DNA of 64,000 bases, from NCBI GenBank assembly GCA_905160935.1, contig CAJHZI010000423.1, positions 2,710,001-2,774,000 of the forward strand. Reading direction: 5' to 3'. This stretch comes from Enchytraeus crypticus. Taxonomy: Eukaryota; Annelida; Clitellata; Enchytraeida; Enchytraeidae. The notes beneath the pieces are model-generated. The model did no database searches. It saw nothing but the letters and a program-made list of their open reading frames with translations, and had not been told where the DNA came from. Made by a program: the position numbers and the translations under genes. Below, in pieces: positions 44,308 to 54,878 of this stretch; within the stretch, counting starts at the first letter, position 1, and each line of letters begins with the position of its first letter.

Positions 44308-44906
44308 CTACGTTTTTTGGTCAACTTCCATGTATACATCGTCATGTATTTTACCGTTACCAAGGACTATGGGTTGAGAAAGAGGAGTGTACAACACTTC
44401 AGGATATCTGTTATATTTACTCTCAGCGACAGTTTTATTCATTCCATTTGTCTCGATTGGAGTCGTAACTCGATGCCCTATTGTCGCCACAGGTACCGCA
44501 TGATTAGAGTTTATTGGCAGAACCGAGGTTTGATTCGTGTGCCTATTGACTTCGAGATGTTTCATTTCCTTTAGTCTGTCACGTTGACGACAGTAATGCA
44601 CGAGAAGTATTAGAAGACTGATTAGAGAAAAGAGTAATAGGACTCCCAATACTAAAGATGTCATGTTTATACTGCGTTCTTTTCCTACGACGTCACTATA
44701 CTTGACTGTGACGTCATCATTGTCTTCATCAACGTCATCGTATTCGGCTTTTTCCATATCATTTACAGTAAGTTGTTCCGCTTCGTCAGCAAAAAGCGGC
44801 ATGGTTGTGGATGTAGTAGTGTTTATACTAGTACCAATGCTGGTACTGGTACTAGTGATGGAGATAGATGTTGTTGTTGTAGTTGATTCTGGTAACTTTG
44901 AAGTTC
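44308..44906 (-). CDS. Ig receptor exon 5: stalk, transmembrane helix, cytoplasmic tail, stop
   Basis: Residues 313-511. The stalk is a run of Thr/Ser (320-347; likely O-glycosylated), then an acidic DDVDEDNDD cluster. The hydrophobic segment SLVLGVLLLFSLISLLILLV is followed by CRQRDR. Tail motifs are V483-x-Tyr485-x-x-L488 and Tyr504-x-x-V507, 19 residues apart. The reading frame ends with TAG at 44310-44308. I saw no clear AATAAA in the next few hundred bases. Confidence 0.88.
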
Positions 44907-45295
44907 CTACAATATTCATAAATTTGCATAACTCAATTTATCGGCGTCTTGTATACAAATCCTCAATGATTGTTCACTGATAGAAATAAGCTACAGACAG
45001 ATTTAAAACTTCATTTCATGCAAGACAAAAGTTTTGTTGAATTAAATAAAAAGCAATTACGAATTTAAATTACAATAGGTAAATATATGTCATCTAATAG
45101 TCTAAATATTTCATGACATCCTGGCGGTAAAAATTGAAAATTTACGGATTTCTGTAAATACTTTGAAGAAAATTAAATTAAATGCATATAATAATTACTA
45201 TTACCCTATACACTAACTTTCTCGAGCTTATCTGTGATGCATTAGAAAACTATACAGTACTGTCTGTGAAGATAATACTGTACTATCATGACAAT

Positions 45296-45362
<67 letters not shown>

Positions 45363-54714: not shown

Positions 54715-54764
<50 letters not shown>

Positions 54765-54878
54765 ATTGATTGATTGATTGATTGATTAATTGATTGATTG
54801 ATTGATTTTAAAAGTCTTACCAAAATTAATTATATTGTGAAGAGCAAGTATGACTGATAATTGAACCCAGATCTTCAT
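44308..54878 (-). CDS. Single-pass transmembrane receptor-like protein with signal peptide, three Ig-like domains and ITIM-like tail (5 exons)
   Basis: Joined exons 54878-54821, 53523-53221, 47777-47454, 46469-46218 and 44906-44308 encode 511 residues and a stop. A signal peptide lies at 1-19. Ig1 (20-121) has Cys41, Trp53 and a DAGDFSC core ending at Cys105. Ig2 (122-229) has Cys145, Trp160 and Cys198. Ig3 (230-310) has Cys251, Trp263 and Cys287 in a YQC core. A Ser/Thr-rich then acidic stalk follows at 314-395, a transmembrane helix at about 396-415, a basic stop-transfer CRQRDR, and a 96-residue tail with VLYTPL (Tyr485) and VYMEV (Tyr504). All four introns are phase 1, as usual for shuffled Ig exons. 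The ectodomain suggests ligand binding in adhesion or immunity, and the tail suggests tyrosine-phosphorylation signalling. I do not recognise an orthologue. Confidence 0.85.
45295..45362. repeat. (CT)n microsatellite
   Basis: 68 bases of CT with TTTCTC interruptions in the last intron of the Ig gene, followed directly by a family E fragment (45365-45520). Confidence 0.9.
45650..45905 (-). pseudogene. LINE 'family F' fragment
   Basis: GTGCACTGCCTATCGACAGA, CAGATCATCCAGCATCCCAT and AATATGTCCTATCCAGC match the order of the 23486-23715 copy; its frames are broken. Confidence 0.65.
46218..46469 (-). CDS. Ig receptor exon 4: Ig-like domain 3 (C2-like)
   Basis: 84 codons, phase 1 to phase 1 (residues 230-312). 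VVTCTADAVPSPRYRW and IYQCVATN are the classic C, W and YxC landmarks of an I/C2-set Ig domain. The acceptor is TTTTTAAG and the donor GTATGT. Confidence 0.9.
47160..47215. repeat. (TA)n microsatellite
   Basis: TA run in the intron after exon 3 of the Ig gene. Confidence 0.92.
47215..47395 (+). pseudogene. LINE 'family F' fragment beside Ig exon 3
   Basis: Plus-strand frame reads [27 protein letters not shown] and KAEDREKCRRIYHGPVSRQC, the same end as the other copies with one intact frame. It ends about 60 bases from the exon 3 donor. Confidence 0.78.
47454..47777 (-). CDS. Ig receptor exon 3: Ig-like domain 2
   Basis: 108 codons, phase 1 to phase 1 (residues 121-229). Cys145 in VSFHCSL, Trp160 in LEWLD and Cys198 in FTCRIVF give the Ig core, with Cys126 and Cys220 at the domain edges as a possible further pair. 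The donor GTAGGT at 47453 is the only one found that joins exon 4 in phase. The acceptor lies in a dispersed repeat (GTTGTTGTTGTTGTAG). Confidence 0.85.
47779..47827 (+). repeat. Dispersed repeat 'family G' at the Ig exon 3 acceptor
   Basis: ACAACAACAACAACAGTTAG and TTACAACATCGAGCACTA. On the minus strand its GTTGTT run is the polypyrimidine tract and 3' splice site of exon 3. Confidence 0.65.
47961..48094 (+). mobile_element. tRNA-like SINE S1
   Basis: CTGGATGGAGCCAGTGGCGA to CAACATTAGCTTTA, B-box GAGGTTCAAATCCT. It lies in the large intron of the Ig gene. Confidence 0.82.
49140..50136 (-). pseudogene. Non-LTR retrotransposon 3' part, broken (second copy)
   Basis: Reads [40 protein letters not shown] with RMSRHH, then after a frame break NWRERSRSGIPSSK, GKRLDG, CAVWEVTVIDTMANSY and VAIETTGP. 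It ends LQRFNGVCFS...GLE and a stop near 49224, with a tail CTCGGGTTCTTTACACCCCG and an A/TAA-rich end. The CxC-G...HGLSC zinc-finger-like motif is intact here. Same family as 21836-23190. It is inside the Ig gene intron, in the same orientation as the gene. Confidence 0.85.
50500..50592. repeat. GA-rich microsatellite
   Basis: GAGAGAGA with GATAGATA and GTGTGTGC interruptions. Confidence 0.88.
50785..50970. repeat. About 80-bp tandem repeat, 2.3 copies
   Basis: The unit runs from GGACTATTAGC through CTACACAGCTACACACCTCA to CTACTACTCAGAGCTCAA. The second copy lacks about five bases. The unit itself holds sub-repeats of CAGCTACACA. Confidence 0.9.
51738..51802 (-). mobile_element. Non-LTR retrotransposon 3'-tail fragment
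   Basis: On the minus strand AATAAAGTCTCCTTTATCCT and TTTTTAGCCCAGGGCCC match the tail of the 21836-23190 copy. Confidence 0.65.
53221..53523 (-). CDS. Ig receptor exon 2: Ig-like domain 1 (V-like)
   Basis: Exactly 101 codons, phase 1 to phase 1, one exon for one domain (residues 20-121). A core Cys41 and Cys105 pair, Trp53 in LQWLK, and the DAGDFSC motif fit a V-set-like fold. Cys48 and Cys88 could form an extra disulfide. The acceptor is CTGCAG and the donor GTTTGT. Confidence 0.88.
53524..54820. other. First intron of the Ig gene
   Basis: No repeat family recognised apart from a GA-rich stretch at 54560-54620 and the TTGA microsatellite at 54705-54808. No further Ig exon seen. Confidence 0.6.
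54705..54808. repeat. (GATT)n microsatellite at Ig exon 1 donor
   Basis: About 26 tetranucleotide units starting CGATCGATCGATTGATTG. The array ends 12 bases from the exon 1 donor. Confidence 0.93.
54821..54878 (-). CDS. Ig receptor exon 1: signal peptide
   Basis: The ATG at 54878 opens MKIWVQLSVILALHNIINF, a short positively charged start and hydrophobic core typical of a secretion signal, plus one base (phase 1). The donor is GTAAGA. A TTTAG acceptor at 54900-54898 suggests a 19-base leader in this exon and an upstream noncoding exon. Confidence 0.82.

Follow-up and report, generated by a model that had tools for sequence, protein, structure and literature searches.

Vertebrate ITIM/ITSM receptors such as the Siglecs, PD-1, SIRP and CEACAM1 combine an Ig ectodomain with one transmembrane (TM) helix and two spaced tyrosines in the tail. 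Ig receptors with ITIM-like tails are also already in print for invertebrates, namely for oyster, Botryllus and Hydractinia. In the oyster Crassostrea gigas, CgIgIT and CgIgIT2 are inhibitory according to the titles that a review cites (its refs 93 and 94; PMC11999971). The relevant part of the review text gives CgIgIT2 five Ig domains and calls its motif an ITAM, whereas the cited title calls the protein an inhibitory receptor (PMC11999971). The Botryllus FcoR proteins are presented, in the sections of a paper that deal with them, as type I receptors with Ig domains, 520-610 aa in length, whose long tails carry an ITIM, a hemITAM or a core Y-x-x-I/L/V, with a V-Ig, a sushi and two C2-Ig domains, and with large polymorphic paired haplotypes (PMC12065747). 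The same sections list the Hydractinia Alr proteins as candidate allorecognition proteins with ITIM and ITAM motifs (PMC12065747). No annelid ITIM Ig receptor was found among literature titles, a weak absence as most subscription journals lie outside the coverage. Graft rejection with an accelerated second response has been described in earthworms and leeches since 1969, according to the part of the source that treats it (PMC2248247).

Here we describe a gene, referred to as the window gene, in a 64,000-nucleotide stretch of DNA (the window). Judged by those partial descriptions, it resembles CgIgIT and CgIgIT2 in being a predicted lophotrochozoan Ig receptor with a tyrosine-motif tail, and differs from CgIgIT2 in having three Ig domains rather than five. 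It is likened, again by description, to the Botryllus FcoR proteins as a type I Ig receptor with a long tyrosine-motif tail; unlike these chordate proteins it has three Ig domains, no sushi domain that could be seen and no local cluster. The Alr proteins, also likened by description, differ in forming part of a cnidarian allorecognition complex. The comparison with vertebrate ITIM/ITSM receptors covers the Ig ectodomain, the single TM helix and the two spaced tail tyrosines; this is a likeness of plan rather than a case for ectodomain orthology, and the window gene differs from vertebrate ITIM receptors in that its Tyr504 is not preceded by the ITIM residue at position -2.

The gene model and an unlinked paralogue

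The window gene lies on the minus strand at 44308-54878, where five exons encode a product of 511 aa. The start codon stands at the 54878 end and the stop codon at the 44308 end, exactly the end points given in the sequence-only reading of this DNA; all borders are GT/AG and every intron is in phase 1. Exon 1 (54821..54878) holds the start codon, the signal peptide MKIWVQLSVILALHNIINF and a phase-1 donor. Exons 2 (53221..53523), 3 (47454..47777) and 4 (46218..46469) encode one Ig domain each, and exon 5 (44308..44906) encodes the stalk, the TM helix, the cytoplasmic tail and the stop. The stalk (residues 313-392; 44668..44906) was recognised by its composition, the first 40 residues being 60% S/T and the next 40 holding 15 D/E. 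The signal peptide and the TM helix (residues about 395-416; 44596..44661) were called by hydropathy only; the helix scores 3.18 over 19 residues from residue 397 and contains zero K, R, D or E. The sequence-only reading had proposed these five exons, the three one-exon Ig domains with phase-1 borders, the signal peptide, the mucin-like and acidic stalk and the single TM helix, and all of them are retained here.

A search of the window gene's own genome (524 Mb, 802 contigs) with the last exon returned the window gene itself, one clear relative on contig C552 (E 5e-16) and a single further match at E 3.5. At C552:1008686-1018073, Ig1, Ig2, Ig3 and TM/tail exons occur in order and with the same phases as in the window gene, the TM/tail exon being at 1017463-1018073; a signal-peptide-like first exon, the counterpart of exon 1, was picked by hydropathy and donor score. 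Because this paralogue has the identical five-exon plan and phases, the gene model is beyond chance, and we conclude on sequence grounds that the window gene is real. No further copy of it was found in the window or the adjoining 30 kb.

The two paralogues differ unevenly along their length. Identical residues number 63/101 in Ig1, 64/108 in Ig2 and 59/82 in Ig3, 23/67 in the stalk and 15/24 in the TM helix, 17/69 in tail residues 417-489 and 11/22 at the C-terminus (490-511). In our own NG86 count, the parts that encode the Ig domains, the TM helix and the C-terminus had dN values of 0.20-0.37 (0.20-0.31 and well below dS in the Ig ectodomain), against 0.73 for the stalk and 0.83 for the middle tail. 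By these regional values, the ectodomain and the extreme C-terminus are kept while the stalk and the middle tail drift. As dS was at least 1.2 and mostly saturated, selection can be called only as purifying on average.

The ectodomain

Ig1 contains the cysteine/tryptophan set C41-W53-C105 and two further cysteines, C48 and C88, which are common to C552 and may pair. It is V-set like and scored above the cut-off against Pfam (Ig_3 1.9e-8, V-set 5.5e-7). Ig2 has the core C145-W160-C198 and further cysteines C126 and C220. On its own it had no Pfam model above the cut-off; a profile (A1) of 8 hand-picked Ig2 sequences from relatives, which did not include the C457 Ig2-like exon that lacks the usual cysteines, matched SYG-2 (4e-4) and CD22 (3e-3) in the PDB. 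Ig3 (core C251-W263-C287) reached only 7e-4 with Ig_3, below the Pfam cut-off, when searched alone, and a profile (A2) of 11 relatives matched DSCAM in the PDB at E 4.5e-25. Contactins were also matched by the Ig2 and Ig3 profiles. Single-sequence AlphaFold gave poor folds (mean pLDDT 64 for Ig2 and 45.7 for Ig3), and of the 540 Foldseek matches to the poor Ig2 fold at E 10, none reached E 0.001. The Ig Cys-Trp-Cys sets, the single TM helix and the signal peptide identify the predicted product as a type I receptor of the immunoglobulin superfamily.

More distant relatives

The ectodomain query gave 34 matches at E <=10. Six of them are exons of the window gene and of C552, 3 from each; the other 28 are weaker (E 4.9e-6 to 4.6), and 19 of these were taken as loci and translated. 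In longer DNA from contigs C482 and C446, both loci show exons for Ig1, Ig2, an Ig3-like domain and the TM helix, and the last exon is a separate one; some borders are unsettled. The C482 query had 11 matches at E <=1, 4 in C482 and 4 in C446, followed by window Ig3 (0.001), C552 Ig3 (0.009) and window Ig1 (1.0). The kinship is not reciprocal, since two Ig1 exons on C457 (4.9e-6 and 1.0e-4) rank ahead of C482 and C446 (8.9e-4 and 0.0012) when the window gene is the query. The two 10-kb stretches after these C457 exons show an Ig2-like exon in which the usual cysteines are missing, and no recognisable Ig3, TM or tail exon. A genome search with the C482/C446 last exons found only these two (2/2 candidates scored). 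At three other loci (L027, L030 and L035, on C779, C410 and C617), Ig3-type exons are followed downstream by exons that start with C-x-x-LTG-x-W-x-S, contain a stretch rich in T and resemble avidin by eye. An avidin-like reading of these downstream exons was dropped, with no Pfam avidin match for 2 exons and no PDB match for 1.

V-set, Ig2 and Ig3 exons of more remote kinship occur at other places in the genome, a number of them on contigs C457, C503 and C617. They count in favour of a paired receptor for pathogen or allo-recognition that is subject to diversifying selection, a reading akin to the paired or immune receptor named in the sequence-only reading. However, the sole close copy is on a different contig, both copies have long tails and TM helices free of K, R, D and E, no short-tailed partner with a charged TM helix occurs among the close copies, and the ectodomain is the conserved part of the protein. 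The check for an activating partner covered the close copies and, among the distant relatives, the C446 and C482 tails. As no such partner was found and the ectodomain is conserved, the paired or pathogen-driven reading is unsupported and we regard it as very unlikely.

Cytoplasmic tail motifs

The tail of the window gene is 96 aa long and contains 5 Tyr. It was compared with the ITIM consensus [SIVL]xYxx[IVL] as given in the sequence-only reading, and with the ITSM, ITAM and YxxPhi motifs. The ITIM consensus occurs once, as VLYTPL (Tyr485; 44380..44397), which is also a Y-x-P-[VL] motif and is preceded by Tyr480 (YPEV), a third motif of the Y-x-x-V kind that is absent from the earlier list. 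Near the C-terminus, DVYMEV (Tyr504; 44323..44340) is a Y-[AVM]-[DE]-[VIL] motif. The residue numbers previously given to Tyr485 and Tyr504 are right in the 511-aa translation. Since 24% of shuffled versions of this tail carry one ITIM consensus or more, the Tyr485 ITIM alone is weak evidence. In C552 no Tyr is aligned to Tyr485, the aligned place lying in VISNEE, and the tail has no ITIM consensus anywhere, with TSYNPV present elsewhere. Tyr504 is kept there as DVYVDL, within the shared GNxxIHxDVYxxxDxKT. The classic-ITIM reading of the tail is only partly supported: VLYTPL fits the consensus and Tyr504 is conserved, whereas Tyr485 is not; since the ITIM itself is not conserved in C552, membership of the ITIM class is not established. 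An ITAM has two YxxL/I about 10-12 residues apart, Tyr to Tyr. Neither the window gene nor the C552 tail has a Tyr pair at this spacing, and the gaps between tyrosines 480, 485 and 504 are 5 and 19 residues, in agreement with the earlier remark that the 19-residue spacing is longer than in a classic ITAM.

A pattern shared by all four tails read came from comparison with C446 and C482. Each of the window gene, C552, C446 and C482 tails contains one Y-[AVM]-[DE]-[VIL] and one Y-x-P-[VL], in an order that varies among them and at spacings of 19 residues in the window gene, 61 in C552 (456 and 517) and 28 and 31 in the C446/C482 pair, and in every case the final Tyr lies 6-7 residues from the C-terminus. 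This count refers to the tails read, with C503, C617, C750 and other relatives standing outside it. Both motifs occurred together in 0.08%, 0.07%, 0.009% and 0.006% of shuffles (window gene, C552, C446 and C482; last exon only for the latter two), figures that overstate the evidence because the pattern was chosen post hoc and the four tails fall into two pairs of homologues. The last exons of C482 (L036:7680-7838; LLYVDV...TIYTPVLRS) and C446 (L037:7646-7870; LLYADI...TIYTPVMRS) have an ITIM consensus and, 28-31 residues further on, TIYTPV as a C-terminal ITSM consensus, an ITIM-then-ITSM arrangement like that of vertebrate receptors. The two consensus motifs together were reached by 0.05% and 0.03% of last-exon shuffles for this pair. 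Their tails make C446 and C482 stronger inhibitory-receptor candidates than the window gene.

The tyrosines at 480, 485 and 504 each also open a YxxPhi (6% of shuffles reach three), and YPEV, YTPL and YMEV could accordingly be AP-2 endocytic sorting signals instead of phosphotyrosine docks. The window gene would then encode an Ig-superfamily adhesion or guidance molecule, for which the profile matches to SYG-2, DSCAM and contactins and the low ectodomain dN between paralogues also speak. Set against this are the acidic Y+2 residue kept at Tyr504 and at its C552 counterpart, and the C446/C482 ITIM/ITSM pair, both of which look more like SH2 sites. We consider this explanation somewhat unlikely. 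That the window gene works like an ITIM/ITSM receptor is plausible.

SHP-type phosphatases

Vertebrates have two SHP genes. In the genome studied here, PF00017 matched 91 SH2 exons with E values no higher than 0.001, and PF00102 gave at least 150 matches (best 150 of 236 candidates). When the two lists were compared by eye, the order SH2-SH2-phosphatase was found on one strand within 8-15 kb at at least four loci: C136:442792-451318, C631:143978-152199, C410:1608810-1623716 and C453:1590449-1602674. Exons were read at C136, and the other three loci were called by match order alone; possibly all four are SHP-like genes. The N-SH2 exon at C136 matched PTPN11 (SHP-2) at 5.5e-33 and PTPN6 less well, at 1.6e-22, and C136 is a likely SHP2 orthologue.

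With so many SH2 exons in the genome, the tail tyrosines might recruit adaptors or kinases of the Grb2, PI3K or Syk type rather than SHP, and the window gene product would then activate or serve as a scaffold. In Botryllus, the activating FcoR1 is associated with a core Y-x-x-I/L/V motif, according to the part of the paper concerned (PMC12065747). The missing ITAM-spaced Tyr pair in the window gene and C552 tails, the fit of VLYTPL to the ITIM and the presence of SH2-SH2-phosphatase loci all argue in the other direction, and we judge this alternative to be decidedly unlikely.

Genome context

The checks put forward in the sequence-only reading implied a mollusc, and here the evidence points elsewhere. 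On the mitochondrial contig C802 (15,205 bp, code 5), 12 protein genes were named by eye on one strand (atp8 was not identified) in the order nad5-nad4L-nad4-(rRNA region)-nad1-nad3-nad2-cox1-cox2-cox3-nad6-cob-atp6, which we take to be the conserved annelid order. Eryth_link_C (PF16915), presumably the annelid erythrocruorin linker family, had 5 matches in the genome, all above the cut-off, and 0 in 14 control genomes, although these controls are uninformative on molluscs because the named ones are prokaryotes. A search of the genome for molluscan haemocyanin was negative, a weak result as no control gave a signal. The gene order and Eryth_link_C both indicate an annelid.

Several other features were observed in the window. 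The repeat GGTTCAAATCCTGGGCTCG has 12 matches with at most 3 mismatches on both strands (0.00 expected), at 7322, 12066, 12124, 12358, 24728, 26176, 31862, 40715, 40832, 41207, 48019 and 55063; the copy at 48019 is within an intron of the window gene and that at 55063 is just upstream of the gene. Its core resembles a tRNA B box, and the repeat is perhaps a SINE. P-type cation ATPase exons with DKTGTLT and TGDGTND motifs lie on the minus strand at 5133-15000 (Cation_ATPase E 3.8e-18 at 9274-9642), perhaps from a calcium pump. Two similar open frames, 22476-23063 (+) and 49345-50142 (-), contain CICG/CPCG...HGLSCKRS and look by eye like retroelement ends, with no Pfam match above the cut-off; the second lies within the intron that separates the exons of Ig1 and Ig2. 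A long tetranucleotide array at 56703-57465 reads (LTHS)n in three minus-strand frames.

Proposed mechanism and significance

Our preferred reading, to which we assign a probability of about 0.45, is that two tail tyrosines of the window gene product dock SHP-type tandem SH2 domains and that the receptor acts as a brake. The three Ig domains would bind a ligand, which is more likely to be a conserved endogenous one than a fast-changing one from a pathogen. A Src-type kinase would phosphorylate Tyr485 and Tyr504, and the phosphorylated pair could then dock both SH2 domains of an SHP2-like phosphatase, which would lower nearby tyrosine-kinase signalling. A TM helix without charged residues would fit a receptor whose own tail does the signalling. 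The sign of the receptor is probably inhibitory, a reading that gains indirect support from the ITIM and ITSM in the C446/C482 tails, the motif pair common to the four tails and the likely SHP2 orthologue. We infer that the gene may be expressed in immune cells.

A broader proposal, improbable as a whole, is that the window gene, C552, C446 and C482 form a small annelid group of checkpoint receptors, each with three Ig domains and with a bipartite tail code in common, which brake coelomocyte or graft-rejection responses via expanded SHP-like phosphatases. If true, the bipartite code would have been reshuffled in order and spacing and yet kept in each tail read, and tandem docking of the ITIM/ITSM type would be older than the vertebrate one or of separate origin. 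The gene set offers candidate receptors and a likely SHP2 partner for annelid graft rejection, and the window gene family could help decide whether the docking of tandem phosphotyrosines to SHP is of ancient origin or arose by convergence.
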